The notes under the pieces were generated by a model. The model ran no database searches. It was not told the DNA's origin and was given only the letters and a program-made list of their open reading frames with translations. This document shows positions 19,792 through 62,771 of a stretch of 64,000 nt of DNA, piece by piece; positions within the stretch are counted from its first letter, which is position 1; each line of letters begins with the position of its first letter. The stretch covers positions 2,108,001 to 2,172,000 of the forward strand of contig NZ_SADE01000001.1 in NCBI RefSeq assembly GCF_004005845.1, in the 5' to 3' direction. This DNA comes from Hwanghaeella grinnelliae (lineage in GTDB: Bacteria > Pseudomonadota > Alphaproteobacteria > UBA8366 > Aestuariispiraceae). Made by a program: the position numbers and the translations under genes.

Positions 19792-21468
19792 ATGGCTGCG
19801 CGAGCTACACTTTTGACGACAATCGCTTTGTTGGCTGGATGCACAAGTGGCGTGGTTTCGACCCCCATAGACACGGCAAAAACCACGGGAGGCAACGAGC
19901 TAGAGGTAGGAAACATACCCCATGGCATCGTGTATCATCTTCCGGCCCGGGAAATAGCGGTTGAAGCGCTTTATCGACTGAACTCCTGCCCAAATATTTC
20001 GACTGCGCAAGAGACAGCGATCCGCACTCGAATAGAATCCTTGGCAAATACGTTCAGCGTACTCGGACAAAAAGTCTCAACCGTCGATAGAGACGGGACA
20101 TATGACGAAGTTCGGGAGTCCATTCGACGCAATAGCGAAGAAATTACATCAATCGCCAAACAAATCGAAACCCTTCTGCAACAGACATTGGTTGTCACAG
20201 TGTCAGGCATCGAAGCGTCCCAACATTCTGTACCCGATTATCTCGCTGGAACCTTTGTCATCGAGACGCGGGAACTGACAACATGGCTAAAGGAAGTGTC
20301 GGAAGCGAAGGTTGTTGTCGAAAACGGTTTGCTTCGTTCGGTAGCCTATGAAGCGAAAGACAAAACACGTGACGTGATCGCAGGGATTAGTGGATTGGCA
20401 TTTCGTATCGCCTCTCAAACCGCGACTATGGCCGTTCCGGGCGGTCAGGCTGCACAAGGAATCGCCAACATTCGAGACAGCGGCGCAATCCAAGCCCTCA
20501 ACGCCGGACTCGGTGAGCAAGGAATTTTCATTATACTGCAGGGCGAGCTCGACGATCTCCGCCAGTCACTGGATAACGCCATTGCCGACTTGGATTACTG
20601 CAATCCGGCAACGATGACAGCGCTGGCTGGAGAGGCGGCACTGAAGGACCAAGTCAAAACCGCGAAGACCGAAGTCGCAAAGGCCAATGCCGCCTATCAG
20701 GCCGCGCTCAAACCAAGCGACGGTACAGCGCCCAACGCGGACGCCGTGAAAGTCGCAAAAGCCCGGCTCGAGGAAGCTCAAAAAAGGCTATCGGCAGAAA
20801 CAGCAAAACTCGCCAAACTTATCGCCGCCAATTTAACCGCCAAAATCAACCGACGCTTCCTCCCTCAGAGGACGGCTTTGTCATTCGACGTCAAACCAAC
20901 GACCGACATACTCCAGAAGTGGTTTAATTCGAACCGTTTTCTATCGACCGGAACTTCATTGGTATCGGCTATGACTATGTTACAGGTCACCGTTGAGCCG
21001 ATTCCCGATTCCAATATTGGTGATGTCAATAAGGCTCCAACCTTCAATGGCATCTACTACCGCGTTCCCAGGCCCGCCAAGCTATTGATTTCAAGGTTGG
21101 GAAACGCGTCCGACGTATTGCAAGGCGCGACGCCGGCATATGTGCCGGCAGCAAACCCGGAGTCCGTTCTCTTCCATCAGTTCGGCGTTCTCGCGGCGCT
21201 GGAGATCGAGAACGGTATCTTCCAGGAGAACAAATACGTGGTTTCGTTTACTGAAGATGGCCTGCTGCACTCTTTCGAATATCAAGAAAAGAGTGCTCGC
21301 GCGCTGGGTGCCGTTGACACAGCAGAAGACGTTCTCGACGCTAAGGACGATGCGGCTATCAATGCAGTCGACCGAGAAACAAAACTACTAGAGGCCGAGA
21401 GAAAAAGGCTTGAGGAATTGAAAAAACTGCAAGATGCGGAAAATGCGCTAATAGAAACCGACGAATAA
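19792..21468 (+). CDS. uncharacterised lipoprotein with coiled-coil segments
   Basis: A 558-residue predicted lipoprotein. The signal peptide MAARATLLTTIALLAGC has a lipobox with the lipidated Cys at residue 17 and no Asp at +2, favouring the outer membrane. A central region looks alpha/beta. A helical coiled-coil section follows (KTEVAKANAAYQAALK, KARLEEAQKRLSAETAKLAK), then a beta-rich part and a charged C-terminal heptad tail (AERKRLEELKKLQDAENAL). ATG 19792 has GGGGGGAG upstream. Codon use is AT-richer than neighbours, which suggests horizontal acquisition. I do not recognise a family. Confidence 0.78.
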   Translation: MAARATLLTTIALLAGCTSGVVSTPIDTAKTTGGNELEVGNIPHGIVYHLPAREIAVEALYRLNSCPNISTAQETAIRTRIESLANTFSVLGQKVSTVDRDGTYDEVRESIRRNSEEITSIAKQIETLLQQTLVVTVSGIEASQHSVPDYLAGTFVIETRELTTWLKEVSEAKVVVENGLLRSVAYEAKDKTRDVIAGISGLAFRIASQTATMAVPGGQAAQGIANIRDSGAIQALNAGLGEQGIFIILQGELDDLRQSLDNAIADLDYCNPATMTALAGEAALKDQVKTAKTEVAKANAAYQAALKPSDGTAPNADAVKVAKARLEEAQKRLSAETAKLAKLIAANLTAKINRRFLPQRTALSFDVKPTTDILQKWFNSNRFLSTGTSLVSAMTMLQVTVEPIPDSNIGDVNKAPTFNGIYYRVPRPAKLLISRLGNASDVLQGATPAYVPAANPESVLFHQFGVLAALEIENGIFQENKYVVSFTEDGLLHSFEYQEKSARALGAVDTAEDVLDAKDDAAINAVDRETKLLEAERKRLEELKKLQDAENALIETDE

Positions 21469-53936: not shown

Positions 53937-54050
53937 ATCGACGCCTAAAACGGATGCGGTGCGATCGTTGTTCCGGATCGGGATAAGCACTACGATACCT
54001 TTCCCGCGGCTCGAAAGGGCCGGAAAATGCGATACGGAATAGAGGCGAAT

Positions 54051-55985
54051 ATGGCGGAAAAGAGTATCATGAATCTCCTCCCCGGGCCGGTGAACGCGGT
54101 GATCGGCGCATGTCTTTTCGGCGGCGGATCGATCCTGATCGCCAGCATGATTTCAGCCCTGGTCTCGCCCGAACCCTCACAAGACATCGCGGCGGGCGGA
54201 AAAGCCCCGCAAACCGAAGCAGCCGCGCCATTAGAAGGTACCGCCAAGGAAGCCGTCGCGCCGGAACCCCCGACCGCTGAAACGGCCGCCCCCGCACCAA
54301 GCGCCACGCCGGTCGAGGCAGGGAAATACATGATCGCCGCCGCCCATCCCGCAGCCGCCCAGGCCGGCGCGCAGATACTGGAAAACGGCGGCAGCGCGGT
54401 AGATGCGGCGATTGCCGCGCAAATGGTGCTGAATGTTGTCGAACCGCAATCGTCGGGCATCGGCGGCGGGGCCTTCATGCTGCATTGGGACGAGTATAAA
54501 CGCCGTCTCGACAGCTATGACGGCCGCGAAACGGCGCCCGCCAAAATGAAGCCGGATGCCTTCCTAACCGCGGGCGGCGAGCCCAAACGCTTCATGGATG
54601 CCGTGATCGGCGGTGCGTCGGTCGGCGTGCCCGGCCTGCTGAAAATGCTGCATATGGCGCATCAGCGGCACGGAAAGCTGCCCTGGGCTGACCTGTTCCA
54701 GCCTGCCATCCAATTGGCGGAAAACGGTTTTCCCGTCAGTGAGCGGCTCTACAGCCTGCTTGTGCGGACCGAAGGCCTGCGCGGCAATCCGGTCACGAAC
54801 GATTATTTCTACACTTTCACCGGCGCCCCGAAGGCGATCGGCACGATCCTGAAGAATCCGGATCTGGCGGAAACCTTCCGCCTGATCGCGGAGGAAGGGC
54901 CGGATGCTTTCTATGACGGGCCGATCGGCCAGGATATCGTCGACGCGGTTCGCAACGCGCATCGGAACCCCGGCGTCATGACCGCAACCGACCTGGCCGG
55001 CTACGAGGCCAAGCGCCGCGCGAATCTGTGCGGCCGGTACCGCGAGCGGCTGGTCTGCGGCATGGGCCCGCCCTCCTCCGGCGGTTTCACGGTGCTCCAA
55101 GCACTCGCCGTGCTGGACGAGTTTCCCTTGGACGAATACCGGCCGGGCGCCCCCGGCACGATTGCCCTTGTCGGGGAAGCCTCGGCACTGGCCTTCGCGG
55201 ATCGGAACCATTACCTGGCCGATGAGGACTTCGTGGACGTCCCCATCAACGCCTTGTTGGAAAACGCCTATATCCGCGCCCGGGCGGGCTTGGTGGACCG
55301 TGCGATGGGTGAGAAATCCAAGAAGCAGCCCGGCCATCCGCGCGGCAAACAGGCGGCCGCCGATACCTCGCTGGAATTGCCCTCGACCACGCATATCTCG
55401 ATCATCGATGCGGACGGCAACGCGGTTTCCATGACCAGCAGCATCGAATCCGGCTTCGGATCACGGGTGATGGTGCGCGGCTTCCTGCTGAACAATCAGC
55501 TGACCGACTTTTCCTTCCTGGCGGAACGGGACGGCAAACCCATCGCCAACCGGGTCGAGCCCGGCAAACGCCCGCGCAGCTCCATGGCCCCAACCCTGGT
55601 CTTCGACGAGGACCGCGAATTGGAAATGGTCCTGGGCTCCCCCGGCGGCAGCCGCATCATCGGCTATGTCCTGCAATCGATCCTGAACACGGTGGACTGG
55701 GAAATGGACCCGCAAGCTGCCGTCTCGCAGCAACACTATTTGAGCCGTAACAGCGGCGTCGAGGTCGAAGACGGCATGGCCGCCGGCACGGTGGAGCAGT
55801 TGGAAAATCTAGGCTTCACCGTCAAGCAACGGAGCATGACCAGCGGGCTGCACATGATCGTCAAACAGGACGACAAACTGCTGGGCGGCGCGGATCCGCG
55901 GCGCGAGGGCACGGCCATCGGGGAAAGTCAGGTCCTGCCGAACCTGGAAAAGGCTTTCGATTTCATTCAGGCAGGAGCGGACTGA
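54051..55985 (+). CDS. ggt: gamma-glutamyltransferase
   Basis: 644 residues. The N-terminal hydrophobic signal/anchor (about 12-35) is followed by an Ala/Pro/Glu-rich linker (KEAVAPEPPTAETAAPAPSA). Catalytic features are the autoprocessing and nucleophile Thr in SLELPSTTHISIIDADGNAV, plus MTSSIESGFGS and SSMAPTLVFDEDREL, and GSPGGSRIIGY. It hydrolyses or transfers the gamma-glutamyl group of glutathione in the periplasm. ATG 54051 was chosen for GAGG upstream; ATG 54027 would add eight residues. Stand-alone gene. Confidence 0.92.
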   Translation: MAEKSIMNLLPGPVNAVIGACLFGGGSILIASMISALVSPEPSQDIAAGGKAPQTEAAAPLEGTAKEAVAPEPPTAETAAPAPSATPVEAGKYMIAAAHPAAAQAGAQILENGGSAVDAAIAAQMVLNVVEPQSSGIGGGAFMLHWDEYKRRLDSYDGRETAPAKMKPDAFLTAGGEPKRFMDAVIGGASVGVPGLLKMLHMAHQRHGKLPWADLFQPAIQLAENGFPVSERLYSLLVRTEGLRGNPVTNDYFYTFTGAPKAIGTILKNPDLAETFRLIAEEGPDAFYDGPIGQDIVDAVRNAHRNPGVMTATDLAGYEAKRRANLCGRYRERLVCGMGPPSSGGFTVLQALAVLDEFPLDEYRPGAPGTIALVGEASALAFADRNHYLADEDFVDVPINALLENAYIRARAGLVDRAMGEKSKKQPGHPRGKQAAADTSLELPSTTHISIIDADGNAVSMTSSIESGFGSRVMVRGFLLNNQLTDFSFLAERDGKPIANRVEPGKRPRSSMAPTLVFDEDRELEMVLGSPGGSRIIGYVLQSILNTVDWEMDPQAAVSQQHYLSRNSGVEVEDGMAAGTVEQLENLGFTVKQRSMTSGLHMIVKQDDKLLGGADPRREGTAIGESQVLPNLEKAFDFIQAGAD

Positions 55986-56025
55986 GCCGACTTACGCTCG
56001 CCCGGCCAAATTTCTTTTCCGCGCG

Positions 56026-56052
56026 TGTCACAGGACCGCGCCCCGCATCGTC
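56026..56052 (+). promoter_or_regulatory. ECF41-type promoter
   Basis: TGTCACA (56026-56032) and CGTC (56049-56052) are separated by 16 bp. These are the -35 and -10 elements known for ECF41 sigma factors, and the ECF41 gene is the second gene of the operon downstream. The AhpD-like gene starts 52 bp after the CGTC. Confidence 0.8.
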
Positions 56053-56104
56053 ATACCCCCGAAACAGTCGACATCGTAGAGACATCATCGATAGGAGAAG
56101 CAGG

Positions 56105-56560
56105 ATGAAAGCACGCCTGGACTATTTCAAAGCCTCGCCCAAAGTCATGAAAGCCATGGTCGGTCTGGAACAGACCGTGCGCGATAGCGGGCTGGAATAC
56201 AGCCTGATCGAGCTGGTGAAGACGCGCGCCTCGCAGATCAACGGATGTGCCTATTGCATCTATATGCACACAACCGACGCCCGGAAGGCCGGCGAGACGG
56301 AGGAGCGCCTGTACCTGCTGTCCGCATGGCGGGAATCCTCGCTTTATACAGACCGCGAGCGCGCCGCCCTGGCCTGGACCGAATCCCTCACCCTGGTTGC
56401 CGAGACCGGAGCGCCGGACGATGTCTATGAGGGCCTGGATCCGCATTTCACCGATGAGGAGAAAGTGAACCTGACGATGCTGATCGGCGCGATCAATGTC
56501 TGGAATCGGATCTCGGTCGGTTTCCGCGGCCAGCATCCGGCTGCGGCAAATGCAGCCTGA
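56105..56560 (+). CDS. AhpD/carboxymuconolactone decarboxylase family protein
   Basis: 151 residues, all-helical. The redox motif CAYC (48-51) with a following His (CAYCIYMHT) is the AhpD-type active centre, giving peroxidase or disulfide activity. GAINVWNRISVGFRG is the typical C-terminal helix. It has a GGAG site upstream and overlaps the ECF41 sigma gene by 11 bp. CMD-family genes are a standard partner of ECF41 factors, so this is very likely a target of that sigma factor. Confidence 0.9.
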   Translation: MKARLDYFKASPKVMKAMVGLEQTVRDSGLEYSLIELVKTRASQINGCAYCIYMHTTDARKAGETEERLYLLSAWRESSLYTDRERAALAWTESLTLVAETGAPDDVYEGLDPHFTDEEKVNLTMLIGAINVWNRISVGFRGQHPAAANAA

Positions 56561-57470
56561 TATCGTCACCCCGAACCGGGAGGCCGCGTTCGCTACCGAG
56601 CGCGGCCGGCTGATCGGTCTGGCCTATCGCATGCTGGGCACCCGCGCGGATGCCGAGGACGTGGTGCAGGACGCCTGGCTGCGTTGGCGGAAGGTCCCGG
56701 TCATGGATGTGGAGAACCCGGCCGGCTATCTGTCGACCATTGTCACAAGGCTGTGCCTGGACCGGTTGAAACAGGCCCGGCGCCGGCGCGAGTTATATGT
56801 CGGCCCTTGGCTGCCGGAACCGGTCCTGACCGATCCGAGCTATGCGCCCCCCTCGATGGAAACCTTGGACCGCGACGTTTCCTTCGCGCTGATGACCGCG
56901 TTGGAGCGGCTGTCCCCACTGGAACGCGCCGCCTTCATTCTGCACGACATCTTCGAAACGCCTTTCCCTGAAATCGCCGTTCTGCTGGACCGAAGCGAAG
57001 CGGCTTGCCGGCAGCTCGCCAGCCGGGCGCGCGGCAATATCGCCAACAACCGCGCCCGGTTCGAAGCGGAAGCAGGCTCAGCGGATAAATTGGCGGATGC
57101 ATTCTTCGCCGCGGCGCGTGACGGTGACACGGATCTGTTGAAACGCGTGCTTGCCCATGACGCGCAATTGCATACCGATGGCGGCGGCCGCAAGGCAGCG
57201 GCCCTGAACGTCATCAAAAGCGCTGACAAGATCACCAGGTTCTTCGCCGGCCTTGCCCGCAAACCCGCCATCGGCCCGCCGATCCTGACACGACGCGCTT
57301 TGGTCAACGATCTTCCCGCCCTGCTAACGCTGGAGCATGACGGGACGCGGCAAGCCGCGATGGTCGAGATCGTCGACGGCCAAATCAGAACCGTCTATAT
57401 GATCCGCAACCCGGAGAAGCTGGAGCGCCTTTGGGCCGATACCAATCTGGGCGACGTTGAATTTTCGTGA
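56550..57470 (+). CDS. ECF41 family RNA polymerase sigma factor (SigJ-like)
   Basis: 306 residues. Sigma2 spans about 14-80 (AYRMLGTRADAEDVVQDAWL); the ECF41 linker WLPEP is at 87-91; sigma4 is at about 110-168 (PFPEIAVLLDRSEAACRQL). A C-terminal SnoaL-like domain carries DGGG (210-213) and NPEKL (287-291), the ECF41 hallmarks by which the extension controls activity in place of an anti-sigma factor. ATG 56550 overlaps the AhpD gene. The promoter at 56026-56052 indicates autoregulation. Confidence 0.93.
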   Translation: MQPDIVTPNREAAFATERGRLIGLAYRMLGTRADAEDVVQDAWLRWRKVPVMDVENPAGYLSTIVTRLCLDRLKQARRRRELYVGPWLPEPVLTDPSYAPPSMETLDRDVSFALMTALERLSPLERAAFILHDIFETPFPEIAVLLDRSEAACRQLASRARGNIANNRARFEAEAGSADKLADAFFAAARDGDTDLLKRVLAHDAQLHTDGGGRKAAALNVIKSADKITRFFAGLARKPAIGPPILTRRALVNDLPALLTLEHDGTRQAAMVEIVDGQIRTVYMIRNPEKLERLWADTNLGDVEFS

Positions 57471-57473
57471 GGA

Positions 57474-58844
57474 CTAACCGCTTTTCAGCAACAGTTTGCG
57501 CCGCACCCGGACCGTCAGAATGACCGATGACATCCCCATGCCGAACGCCATGCCGAGCCAAATTCCCTGAACGCCCAGACCCGCGGGGAAAGCCAGAAGC
57601 CCCGCCGCCGGAACTCCCAGCAGGGCAAAGCACAGGATGGAGGTGACGGCGGGCGCGCGCGGGTCGTCCAACCCTTGCAGCACACCGGTCAGAACGATGC
57701 GGCCGCTATCGACGACAAGCAGCAAGGATCCGAAAAGCATCAGCGGGGCCGCGAGCGCGATCGTTTCGTCGGCCAACGGCACATCCGCCCCAATGAAGAG
57801 TGGAACCAGTCCATTGCGGCCAAGCCCGATGGCCACGGCGAAAAGGATCATCCCGCCGCCCCCGATGGCAACCGCATTGCGGATCGCCCTGCCCCGCGCC
57901 GCGCCGTGATCCCGCCCATCATTGAAGGCGACACTGATCGCCGCCGCCTCACTGAACCCCAGGGCAAGGGCGATGCCGATCTCGGACAACTGCAGCACGA
58001 TCGAATGCGCCGCCAGGGGAACGGGGCCCAGATAGCCGACAAGTATGGCCACGACCGCGAAAAAGGCCATGGTGGCCGCCTCCAAGACTGCGAAAGGAAC
58101 GGCATAGCGCAACACCGGCTTGATCTGCCGCCATACCGCCAGATGTACCCGCCAAGCGCGCCACAGGCCATCGAAAACGGATATCCGCCAAAGCCAAAGC
58201 CCCAAGGCCAAAGCAGTGAGCAAACCGGTCAAGGCGGTGCTAATCCCCGCCCCCGGCAGTCCAAACGCGGGTATTCCGACCGCGCCGAAGATGAACACAT
58301 AATTGCCCACGAAATTCACCGCCACAGCGGAAACCGACATGGCCAGGACGGCCCGTCCATGACCGTGTGCCGACGCGATGGACCACAACCAGCCATGCAC
58401 AAAGGTGAACGGCAGCGCGAGCGCCAGCCAATGCGCATAGGACCCGGCCAGTTCGGAAAGCAGAGCATCCTGCCCCACAGCCAGCAGAACCGGTTCCATC
58501 GCGGCGATGAAGGCGATGCAAGGCAACATGGCCAACCCCAGCGAAAACGCCGACGCGGCCAAGGCATTCGCGGCCGATGCCGTATCGCCCGCCCCCAGAT
58601 ACCGGGACAGCAGCGGGCCGACGCCGATGGCAAATCCGATCCCCGCAAAGGAGAGCATCAGATAGATCGAACTGGCGAGCGTCGCCGCCGCCAATTCCGG
58701 CGCACCGAGCCGCCCGATCATCGCGACGTCGGTCACGCCAATGGCGATATGCGCCAGATTGGCCAAGCCCAGGGACATGCCCAGGCGGAACAGGTCCGGC
58801 GTCCTTGTGGCTGTGTTGTCGACCGTCTCGACAAGATCAGACAT
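57474..58844 (-). CDS. MATE family efflux transporter
   Basis: 456 residues with 12 predicted helices in two homologous halves. Family features are AHIAIGVTDVAMIGRLGAPELAAATL in TM1-2, and GVPTALVVWA-like repeats with GLPGAGISTALTGL in the middle. It exports cationic compounds in exchange for Na+ or H+. It converges with the ECF41 gene (3-bp gap between stops) with no terminator between. Confidence 0.92.
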   Translation of the reverse strand: MSDLVETVDNTATRTPDLFRLGMSLGLANLAHIAIGVTDVAMIGRLGAPELAAATLASSIYLMLSFAGIGFAIGVGPLLSRYLGAGDTASAANALAASAFSLGLAMLPCIAFIAAMEPVLLAVGQDALLSELAGSYAHWLALALPFTFVHGWLWSIASAHGHGRAVLAMSVSAVAVNFVGNYVFIFGAVGIPAFGLPGAGISTALTGLLTALALGLWLWRISVFDGLWRAWRVHLAVWRQIKPVLRYAVPFAVLEAATMAFFAVVAILVGYLGPVPLAAHSIVLQLSEIGIALALGFSEAAAISVAFNDGRDHGAARGRAIRNAVAIGGGGMILFAVAIGLGRNGLVPLFIGADVPLADETIALAAPLMLFGSLLLVVDSGRIVLTGVLQGLDDPRAPAVTSILCFALLGVPAAGLLAFPAGLGVQGIWLGMAFGMGMSSVILTVRVRRKLLLKSG

Positions 58845-59012
58845 GCCCGGCCATTCCGGAAATCGGCATCAAAACATCCCCCTACGGCGTCCGTCGCCGT
58901 CCCTTTTGTCTGTCGCTTCCCTAAGATGAGCCCGTGAACTGTTGTCCTATGTCAGTACAGCAGCCGAAGGCACCGGGGCAACCGGGCGACCCGATTCCGG
59001 TATACCCAAATT

Positions 59013-59027
59013 ACCGGAAAAGCCGGT
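59013..59027 (-). terminator. weak hairpin after the aspartate dehydrogenase-like gene
   Basis: ACCGG-CTTTT-CCGGT on the minus strand is followed by AATTTGGG, immediately after the stop codon. The stem is only 5 bp and the T-run short. Confidence 0.35.
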
Positions 59028-59852
59028 TCAGCTTCCGATCTTCAGCGGCTGCACGAGGGCCTTCAAGGCCGCGATGGTGCTGAGCGGGGTGAGTTTGCCG
59101 GTGGCCGGGTTCTCTTCCGTGGGGACGCCCGCTATGGACATCTCAAACGACACCTCCGCGGCATCCACCTCGATCACATGGGTGTTTCGGGTCACCCCCG
59201 GATCGGCCCAGATTTCATATTGCGTCTCATCCGGTCCGGCGCCCGCCAACGATAGCGCGACCGCCACATTCACATTCGCTGGGAATTTCTGGGCCGCGTC
59301 GCGGACGGAGCCTTGGTAAAGCCGCAACGGTTCCGACAGGTCGGACAGGTCGATCCCCTGCTCTATCACGAACGGCGCCTTGGCGAGGCCGGCCGGCGGT
59401 TTGCGGGTTCGCATGGTGACCGACCGCAGCGTCCCCTCCGCCGCGGCGCGGACCGCGTCCAAGCCCAGCAGCGCGCCGGTCGGCACGATGATCCGCGCGC
59501 CGGTTTCCGTTGCGAGATCGACAATGTCCCAATTCACGAGCAATTGGGTCACGCTGAGGGGCATCAAGACCTTTCCCGCCTTCACCGTCGGTTCCGCGAC
59601 CGCGCGGAACAGGTCGGGCGGCAGACATTCGACGACCACATCGGCCGCCTCCGCCAGGTCACCGGGCGATAAATAACTGGGTTGATGCGTCAGTCCCGCC
59701 AATTTGGTCCGCGCCGAGCTTTCGCTGGAGGCAGTGGCCGCAACAAGGTCGAGGCCTTGCCCCAAAGTCCGCGCGTCATCGCTATCCAGCCATTCGGCCA
59801 CCTTCAGACCGACAGCCCCCAACCCGGCCAAAGCCACCTTCACCTGTGCCAT
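59028..59852 (-). CDS. aspartate dehydrogenase-like NAD(P) oxidoreductase
   Basis: 274 residues. The N-terminal Rossmann domain has VKVALAGLGAVGLKVAEWL; the middle has VVVECLPPDLFRAVAEPTVKAG and IIVPTGALLGLDAV; the C-terminal domain NVNVAVALSLAGAGPDETQYEI and VTRNTHVIEVDA match the L-aspartate dehydrogenase family. Such enzymes convert aspartate to iminoaspartate for NAD or amino-acid metabolism. ATG 59852 is preceded by GGGGAAACGAGG; the frame is open to 59936. The real substrate may differ, since no nad genes are near. Confidence 0.78.
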   Translation of the reverse strand: MAQVKVALAGLGAVGLKVAEWLDSDDARTLGQGLDLVAATASSESSARTKLAGLTHQPSYLSPGDLAEAADVVVECLPPDLFRAVAEPTVKAGKVLMPLSVTQLLVNWDIVDLATETGARIIVPTGALLGLDAVRAAAEGTLRSVTMRTRKPPAGLAKAPFVIEQGIDLSDLSEPLRLYQGSVRDAAQKFPANVNVAVALSLAGAGPDETQYEIWADPGVTRNTHVIEVDAAEVSFEMSIAGVPTEENPATGKLTPLSTIAALKALVQPLKIGS

Positions 59853-59979: not shown

Positions 59980-60852
59980 TTACTTGTATTTAGTCGGCAA
60001 CATCGATCCCACCTGACCGGTGAAATCCTTGCCCTTGATTGCTTCGCCGAATGCCCGGCCCGCCTCGTCGGTGGGGTTGGCAAGCACATCGGCGGCTTCA
60101 GGAATAGCGCTCAGCACTTCCTTGGCCTTGGCGATGCGCTTGTTCTGCGCTTCGACATATTTCGCATTGTCTGTCTTGCTGATGGCATCCGTCGCGCTGA
60201 CCAGCGCCGCCGCCTGACCAACGAGGAAGTAAACCGACTTCTGAGCATCGGTCATTTCCTGGTTGTTCTTCACATCCGGAGGATAGAAGCGGTGACGCAC
60301 GACGCCTTGGCTGTATTCGACCAGTTCAAAGCCCGGGTTCAACGGATGACCGTTTTCAAGCATCGTCGCAGCGGTATCGCCCGGCAGGTTCGGATTGGCC
60401 AAACCATGGCAGGACATGCAGTTCGACGCGATGTCATAAATCATCGACGAATGGATCATACCCTTGGCGATGCCGTCTTGAATCGAGTTCGGGTTCTTCT
60501 TGTCGTTATGGATATCGATCCATTCCTTGGCGGCGCCGTGACAGCTTTCGCAGGACGGGCCCGCTTCGGCTTTGCCATCGATCACCGTGTAGTGGCACAT
60601 GACGCAGGTATCGGACTTCTTCATCCGACGGTCGCCGACGGCCTTAACGATATCTTTCGCCTTCTTGTCCCGGTGGATTTCCTTGAAGGACGAGAAGTGC
60701 GGCGTGCCTTCCCAGACACCATGTTCAGCGGTGTGACACTTCTTACAAGCGTCCGGACCGACATTGTCAGCTGCTGCTGCACCGGCGGTTCCGAATACGG
60801 CGGTAAGGAGAGCCGCCGCAAACGCCGCCCGGAAAATTCTTTGGATCATCAT
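59980..60852 (-). CDS. tetrahaem c-type cytochrome (cytochrome c554-like)
   Basis: 290 residues. The signal peptide is cleaved near AAAADN (about 28). Four c-haem motifs are visible: CKKCH (36-40), CVMCH (83-87), CESCH (101-105) and CMSCH (145-149). The spacing and the HHE/His content (PHFSSFKEIH, KEWIDIHND, GHPLNPGFELVEYSQGVVRHRFYPP) fit the cytochrome c554/NrfA-related multihaem group. The C-terminal third is helical without haems. It is periplasmic and carries electrons. ATG 60852 or 60849 is preceded by GGGG. It has its own promoter and terminator, next to the porin and multihaem genes. Confidence 0.87.
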   Translation of the reverse strand: MMIQRIFRAAFAAALLTAVFGTAGAAAADNVGPDACKKCHTAEHGVWEGTPHFSSFKEIHRDKKAKDIVKAVGDRRMKKSDTCVMCHYTVIDGKAEAGPSCESCHGAAKEWIDIHNDKKNPNSIQDGIAKGMIHSSMIYDIASNCMSCHGLANPNLPGDTAATMLENGHPLNPGFELVEYSQGVVRHRFYPPDVKNNQEMTDAQKSVYFLVGQAAALVSATDAISKTDNAKYVEAQNKRIAKAKEVLSAIPEAADVLANPTDEAGRAFGEAIKGKDFTGQVGSMLPTKYK

Positions 60853-60926
60853 TTGTCCCCGACTGTTGTTGCCTGGGCCCAGTTGGGCATCCACTGTTCG
60901 CCCCGCCGACCATCGGTAGAGCTGGA

Positions 60927-60961
60927 TCACATCACGGAACCACTATAGTGCTCGTGTGTGA
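60927..60961. promoter_or_regulatory. nested dyad upstream of the tetrahaem cytochrome
   Basis: The palindrome CACTATAGTG (60941-60950) is centred inside an outer imperfect repeat TCACATCACG/CGTGTGTGA. It lies 75-109 bp upstream of the start and could be a regulator site; the inner part also resembles a TATAGT -10 box. The rest of 60853-61112 shows nothing recognisable. Confidence 0.3.
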
Positions 60962-61211: not shown

Positions 61212-62771
61212 TTAGAACTTGCGGCGCAGTTCAAGACGGGCGCCACGAATATCTTCGTTGTCCGTCCGCCAACCGTAAATTCCGTCCGCCCGAACAATCC
61301 AGGCCGGAGAAATCGGAAGTTGGTAGCGGAAACCGATGGCATATTCGTCATCCGGCACCGCGCGGTTCGCGCTGAACCCGCCGAGCCGCTGCGACGTCGC
61401 CGCTTCCACAACGATCTGCTGGTGCAAGTCGAATAGATACTGAATACCGATCGCGCCGCCATATGCGTCCTGGGCACTGTCGTTCAGTTTCGGGAAGTTC
61501 GTGATGCCCGGGTTCTCGAAAGTGATACCCGTATTCTTCAGAAGGCCTGTATTGTCCGTCAGCGGTTGCGGACGGTCGAAACCAATGAAGAAGTTGGCAT
61601 AAGGAATCAGTGTCGAGGGAAGATGCGTAATCAACGAATTTTCCACCAACAAGACGAAACCGTCTGCCGTCTGATCCGCACCGTTGTCTCGATCCTGACC
61701 GAAGGTCCAGATCGCACGGGCGCTGTTGGAAAGCCATCTGTTGTAGCGTTTTGAGAACGCGACCGTCAGACTGTTGAAGGACTGATCGTCGAACCCGTCA
61801 TGCCCTTCCAGGCGGCCGTATCCGAATTCCCAGTAACCTTCCATGGCTTCCACAAAACCGGCGACGCCATAAACGTCGAGGTTATGTTTCGCGCGCTTGC
61901 CGTTGCCGTCGAGGATCGCGGGATTTTCAACATTATCCCAGCCACCGAAGAAGGTGAAATCCATGTTGGATATGGTCAAGGCAGGGCTGTTTTTCGCCGG
62001 TATGGTGAACGCCGCCCCGGTGAAGATTTCATCCACCCAGACACCATTCTGGAAAATCATCGGCATCAAGCCGAAAGCGACCGGCAGATCGAAGCCTGCG
62101 TCCTTGCCCATCAGACCTGACGCGATCTGACCAATATCACCTTCGAAGAACAGAGCCTCGATATTGCCGTTGATCTGTTCCTCACCGCCGTCTTCGTCAT
62201 CACCGAAGAATTCGTACCGGGTTGCGTTTCCGTCCCGATCAAACGGTTCAACAAGGGCGTGGATACGCTCGGTCCCCGTGAGCTTGAGGTCGATGTCCAG
62301 GTTGGCGTCGATCGCGATCTGGCCGCGTTCGTCGTTACCATTGTCGTTATATTCGACGGCGGTTTTAACGTCCCCATAGATGGCCAAGGCCGGGAAAACG
62401 AGGTTCCGTTCACCAATAATGTTGATACCGGGTTGGAACGGGCCTTCTGTGTACTGAGGCCGCCCCAATTCAAGCAGCGGACGCGGTGTCGGTGCCGGCC
62501 GCTTTGCCCCATAGATCTCAAACTGAGCCTGCGGGTCGTAGGGCTTGTCCTCATAGCTAGGATCGTCCCCAAAATACTCGGGATCGTGCTCCACCTTCGT
62601 CGCTTCGGGCGGAATGATCGATTCCGTTTTGACCCCTTCCGCGGCCCCCCATGCATCTACCGACAGCAACGACAGGCTTAGTGCCGTTGCCGCCAGCAGG
62701 ACCGACATCGCGGCGCCGTGACGCCCGAAAGATGCATCTGAGACCACCTTACTCTCACCAGTTCTTTTCAT
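61212..62771 (-). CDS. outer-membrane beta-barrel protein (putative porin partner of cytochromes)
   Basis: 519 residues. A signal peptide (hydrophobic core AAMSVLLAATALSLSLLSVDAWG, about 20-42) precedes a Pro/Glu-rich periplasmic leader, then many amphipathic beta-strands (e.g. NIIGERNLVFPALAIYGDV, YWEFGYGRLEGHDG, YGGAIGIQYLFDLHQQ, AYAIGFRYQLPI-like). It ends in the C-terminal Phe (ELRRKF) that outer-membrane barrels use for assembly. It lacks a recognised family. It starts 17 bp after the stop of the partial multihaem-type gene, so the two are co-transcribed. Context suggests a porin-cytochrome unit. Confidence 0.75.
   Translation of the reverse strand: MKRTGESKVVSDASFGRHGAAMSVLLAATALSLSLLSVDAWGAAEGVKTESIIPPEATKVEHDPEYFGDDPSYEDKPYDPQAQFEIYGAKRPAPTPRPLLELGRPQYTEGPFQPGINIIGERNLVFPALAIYGDVKTAVEYNDNGNDERGQIAIDANLDIDLKLTGTERIHALVEPFDRDGNATRYEFFGDDEDGGEEQINGNIEALFFEGDIGQIASGLMGKDAGFDLPVAFGLMPMIFQNGVWVDEIFTGAAFTIPAKNSPALTISNMDFTFFGGWDNVENPAILDGNGKRAKHNLDVYGVAGFVEAMEGYWEFGYGRLEGHDGFDDQSFNSLTVAFSKRYNRWLSNSARAIWTFGQDRDNGADQTADGFVLLVENSLITHLPSTLIPYANFFIGFDRPQPLTDNTGLLKNTGITFENPGITNFPKLNDSAQDAYGGAIGIQYLFDLHQQIVVEAATSQRLGGFSANRAVPDDEYAIGFRYQLPISPAWIVRADGIYGWRTDNEDIRGARLELRRKF

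Follow-up and report, generated by a model that had tools for sequence, protein, structure and literature searches.

Does the ECF41 sigma factor gene of Hwanghaeella grinnelliae, together with the AhpD-like gene of the carboxymuconolactone decarboxylase (CMD) family that precedes it, form an operon under the control of its own sigma factor, and does this sigma factor have any further targets? The gene pair lies in a stretch of 64,000 nucleotides, here called the window, for which the original prediction had described a TGTCACA-N16-CGTC promoter ahead of an AhpD-like gene that overlaps an ECF41 gene. Both elements are present: the promoter sequence is an exact match (Table 1) and the two genes, which are co-directional, overlap by 11 nt. 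The pair is very probably an ordinary ECF41 sigma factor operon.

Gene arrangement and promoter

Table 1. Features of the CMD/ECF41 unit, in window coordinates
Feature	Position	Strand	Remarks
ECF41-type promoter TGTCACA-N16-CGTC, exact	56026..56052	+	-35 at 56026-56032, -10 at 56049-56052
Probable ribosome-binding site GGAGAA of the CMD gene	56094..56099	+	inferred by reading the sequence
AhpD-like carboxymuconolactone decarboxylase (CMD) family gene, 151 aa	56105..56560	+	
ECF41 sigma factor gene, 306 aa from ATG 56550	56550..57470	+	
WLPEP motif, sigma2-sigma4 linker, residues 87-91	56808..56822	+	
Sigma C-terminal extension, predicted NTF2/SnoaL-like fold	57051..57467	+	AlphaFold2 model, Foldseek, motif counts

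The promoter occupies the 119-nt gap that follows the gamma-glutamyltranspeptidase gene (54027-55985), on the sense strand and with 52 nt between the -10 element and the start of the CMD gene. The most plausible start of the sigma gene is its ATG at 56550; the longest open reading frame (ORF) opens at 56496, a start that would merely add N-terminal length. The MATE transporter gene that follows is convergent, with its end at 57474 right next to the end of the sigma gene. No known anti-sigma gene was found among the neighbours scanned, which are genes for an AraC-type regulator, the gamma-glutamyltranspeptidase, the CMD protein, the MATE transporter and an aspartate-dehydrogenase-like protein. 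The G+C content of the unit (0.59-0.65) is similar to that of its surroundings (0.59-0.67).

The interval between the gamma-glutamyltranspeptidase and the aspartate-dehydrogenase-like genes (55986-59028) looks like a variable site: relatives have different genes there (loci L145 and L147), among them a Crp/Fnr-like ORF plus one more ORF in genome G007, and Lrp- and EamA-like ORFs follow the gamma-glutamyltranspeptidase gene in genome G001 (all names assigned by eye). Further downstream, an ORF with several CxxCH motifs on the minus strand (59980-60930), by eye apparently a multihaem cytochrome, is adjoined by a long ORF (61212-62771) that has the look of an outer-membrane protein.

The sigma factor belongs to the ECF41 group

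The sigma protein has a region 2 (PF04542, Sigma70_r2, E 1.8e-14) and a region 4 (PF08281, r4_2, E 2.9e-13). It scores 349.8 bits against NF007214, the NCBIfam model of the SigJ subfamily, which is over the cut-off of 271, and 303.9 bits against TIGR02957 (SigX4), which is under the cut-off of 323.25. Its best solved relative, both in sequence and in fold, is SigJ of Mycobacterium tuberculosis (PDB 5xe7): residues 13-291 match at E 7.4e-52, and Foldseek returns SigJ at E 8.3e-18 with 35% identity in the Foldseek alignment, followed by SigG1 (E 2.1e-13) and also by ketosteroid-isomerase folds.

Everything after region 4, up to residue 306, is an extension of the type that defines ECF41 proteins (at least about 100 aa long and SnoaL-like in fold). 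The Pfam scan gave no SnoaL match to the C-terminus of the sigma protein; the AlphaFold2 model predicts the domain to be NTF2/SnoaL-like. This model has a mean pLDDT of 77.7 and a pTM of 0.56 and its overall superposition on SigJ is moderate (TM 0.55/0.59, rmsd 6.1); the domain arrangement in the model is not reliable.

Three motifs had been named in the original prediction and all three are in the protein: WLPEP, DGGG (residues 210-213) and NPEKL (residues 287-291). WLPEP is named for ECF41 in PMC3426412, while the names DGGG and NPEKL were adopted from the prediction and agree with our alignment A1, which has 45 rows: the window protein and proteins from 44 hand-picked loci out of 95 related ones (L013, L016 and L021-L024 of the first 15 loci are omitted, four of these six being on the minus strand). 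In this alignment WLPEP is found in 38 of the 45 proteins, window included, and DGGG has an invariant D and an invariant last G, the two middle G being conserved to at least 90%. The last motif reads NPDKL in 32 proteins, and the NPEKL of the window is a minority form (7/45). At two positions conserved to at least 85%, both usually G, the window protein deviates (S224 and D254). Thus sigma2 and sigma4 regions, a SigJ-like profile, the extension, the motifs and the link to a COE gene and the promoter, by which ECF41 proteins are recognised, are found together, and the family identity proposed for the protein agrees in layout, promoter and motifs with the published group (PMC3426412).

The AhpD-like protein

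The CMD protein matches PF02627 (E 2.3e-22) and the AhpD core domain TIGR00778 (E 7.6e-17), both over the cut-off. Residues 36-55 form an E-x11-CxxC-x3-H motif, a spacing that we take to be that of the catalytic motif of AhpD. The protein is probably a redox-stress enzyme that would act through its CxxC as a thiol peroxidase or a disulfide reductase. Its best solved relative, Atu0492 (PDB 2gmy, E 1.1e-53), is listed with only a hypothetical-protein name. Among the matches listed, 60 related loci have a CMD match; the CxxC, which is named for CMD proteins in PMC3426412, is within the matched segment in 59 of them and the full E-x11-CxxC-x3-H in 34, a number that becomes 32 of 35 when only CMD matches with at least 50% identity are counted. 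The H. grinnelliae genome has eight CMD-family matches in all.

The promoter motif recurs at related loci

We compared 95 other loci: 15 from a search of 59 genomes and the best 80 of a longer list, a sample that is no census. Layout labels and a limit of 150 nt were set from the ends of tblastn matches rather than from start codons. Among these matches, CMD stands directly ahead of the sigma gene in 39 of the 95 loci (CMD>ECF>), and in 29 of these 39 the promoter motif is no more than 150 nt away from the CMD match. In seven of the remaining ten (from Bosea, Afipia and a Rhizobiales record) the motif lies further upstream; the three CMD>ECF> loci without a motif (L017, L018 and L022) are more distant. 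L021 likewise has no motif and belongs with the CMD>ECF> loci by its overlap; it was filed as 'other' because its genes overlap, and counting it gives 29/40. In all 18 divergent CMD/ECF loci among the matches listed, the space between the genes contains one motif or more. Of the 38 'other' loci listed, 19 have the motif in the 1.2 kb ahead of the sigma gene and 19 do not; among the latter is L108, which is truncated at the sigma gene and unable to show one. In two 'other' loci (L092 and L105) CMD is downstream of the sigma gene.

Several loci have a more complex arrangement. In Bosea (L042) a second CMD-like ORF precedes CMD and the motif is ahead of this first ORF, and in Afipia (L063) CMD comes after an epimerase-like and another ORF, the motif again preceding both (ORFs named by eye); in L045, L049, L069, L070 and L076 the motif is similarly far away. 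In L082, L085 and some other Methylobacterium/Methylopila loci, three ECF41-type motifs are found on both strands within a few kb, suggesting that a single locus gives rise to more than one transcript under ECF41 control.

The distribution of the sigma gene is patchy: it is found in 15 of the 59 genomes at E <= 1e-30, its own included, and in 5 of the 13 other genomes of its own family. In a tree of the 45 alignment rows, Caenispirillum is the partner of the window protein (100/98), and the two form a group with Fodinicurvata and Marinobacterium (98/92); Caenispirillum and Fodinicurvata are the nearest rows. Patchy distribution and nearest rows together suggest that the sigma gene may have been mobile or may have been lost in places.

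Genome-wide matches to the promoter pattern and the probable size of the regulon

Further copies of TGTCACA-N16-CGTC, for which a genome search had been proposed along with the original prediction, do exist: there are six besides the one at 56026. The resulting seven sites in 5.3 Mb compare with one site for the reversed-pattern control; the bare pattern is therefore not rare and by itself weak evidence. Within the 64-kb window the exact pattern occurs twice, with 0.02 occurrences expected (100 shuffles). The second copy (20193-20219, plus strand) sits in a long ORF for which Pfam gave no match, and is probably fortuitous. The case for the site at 56026 rests on its strand, its position and its recurrence in relatives, not on the pattern alone.

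All seven sites were checked against ORFs, with a Pfam scan of the main ORFs at six loci. Four of the six other sites are inside ORFs, one is close to where an ORF of the L-PSP family begins (L003) and one is ahead of an epmA-like gene (L007). This last site is flanked by an EF-P-like ORF (assigned by eye) and by a gene of the class II tRNA-synthetase family, taken here as epmA. As a conserved target it was rejected: the site is absent from all ten usable epmA-side loci, which come from nine related genomes; an eleventh locus, L143, was left out, as the scanned stretch did not reach its upstream part. Of the seven sites, the one at 56026 alone combines a suitable position with conservation in relatives.

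It is improbable that the sigma factor governs a regulon wider than its own operon through these other sites. The excess over the reversed control and the position of the L007 site next to the epmA-like gene would fit such a regulon, and a title cited in PMC8999054 states that an ECF41 sigma factor of Azospirillum brasilense controls motility and lateral flagella. However, five of the six additional sites are within ORFs or near the L-PSP ORF start, the stricter pattern TGTCAC-N16-TCGTC retains only three sites genome-wide, the epmA-side site is missing from relatives, and single targets were reported for ECF41 factors of two species (Wecke et al. 2012, PMC3426412) and also for that of Sinorhizobium meliloti (PMC6180224). 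A search with NF007214 found this one ECF41 sigma gene and no second one in the genome, which is 97.85% complete. A regulon consisting of the single operon is the best reading of these data.

Proposed control of the operon

Activity, autoregulation and C-terminal control of the sigma factor are inferred by analogy to Rhodobacter sphaeroides, Bacillus licheniformis, S. meliloti and SigJ. The sigma factor would bind RNA polymerase and guide it to the promoter at 56026, and firing of this promoter would lead to expression of the AhpD-like gene and, via co-transcription and probably coupled translation, of the sigma gene too; such autoregulation is expected because co-directional, overlapping genes stand behind the motif. 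The SnoaL-like C-terminal domain would replace an anti-sigma protein and keep the sigma factor mostly inactive, until a cue, probably a small molecule, alters its conformation and sets it free. The freed sigma factor would then cause the operon to amplify itself and the AhpD-like enzyme to be made. Part of the C-terminal domain would be required for activity. This scheme of C-terminal control is based on PMC3426412 and PMC8999054, and the truncation pattern reported for ECF41 is that a shortened C-terminus makes the protein much more active while full removal leaves it inactive (PMC3426412). Promoter, own C-terminal extension and CMD association, listed as known ECF41 facts in the original prediction, correspond to the published ones (PMC3426412). 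No inducing signal for ECF41 is named in the excerpted texts of PMC3426412, PMC6180224 and PMC8999054 or in the openings of ECF41 abstracts.

The SnoaL-like domain might bind the substrate of the AhpD-like enzyme, so that the enzyme would clear the inducer of its own operon and the two genes would form a closed homeostatic loop with no separate sensor; we regard this as a tentative and rather unlikely idea. A role of the CMD protein in signal sensing, as redox partner or as anti-sigma factor and not as a target alone, is very unlikely: tight gene overlap and recurrent co-occurrence with the sigma gene are compatible with it, but co-expression of YdfG had no significant effect on the activity of Ecf41Bli (PMC3426412) and the control of ECF41 factors is described as intramolecular (PMC8999054). 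We almost completely discount a transcription of the operon from another promoter with a fortuitous match at 56026, as strand and distance of the match are right and the motif is similarly placed in most relatives with CMD>ECF> layout, even though the bare pattern is found seven times in the genome. An ordinary ECF41 operon, controlled by the sigma factor through its own C-terminal domain, thus remains the preferred reading.

Comparison with known ECF41 operons

The arrangement is a common one: Wecke et al. 2012 (PMC3426412) found the COE>ECF> layout in 107 of 373 ECF41 loci, with the promoter motif present in 97 of these 107. Two such CMD-ECF41 operons already come with experimental data, so the value of the present unit as a model, put forward in the original prediction, is a question of preference. 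In RSP_0606-ecf41Rsp of R. sphaeroides (PMC3426412), CMD overlaps the ECF41 gene, the promoter is of the TGTCACA/CGTC type and the sigma factor has a C-terminal extension; its untranslated leader is 22/23 bp, whereas the -10 element in H. grinnelliae lies 52 nt before the ATG and the leader is therefore probably longer. In SMb20029-rpoE9 of S. meliloti (PMC6180224), a CxxC CMD gene is upstream of the ECF41 gene and probably co-transcribed with it, the ECF41 motif is at the mapped start site and the operon is the sole target; in the excerpted text of this source, the different host is the one difference seen.

These comparisons show that layout, promoter and domain plan were already known from the published ECF41 group. 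What is added here is the placement in NF007214, SigJ as the best solved relative, the recurrence of the motif in relatives and the genome-wide survey of sites. On its own the operon decides no open question about ECF41 factors. It is one more clean ECF41 operon, and the comparative set of CMD/ECF41 pairs with recurring promoters assembled here could help to infer the cue of the C-terminal domain.
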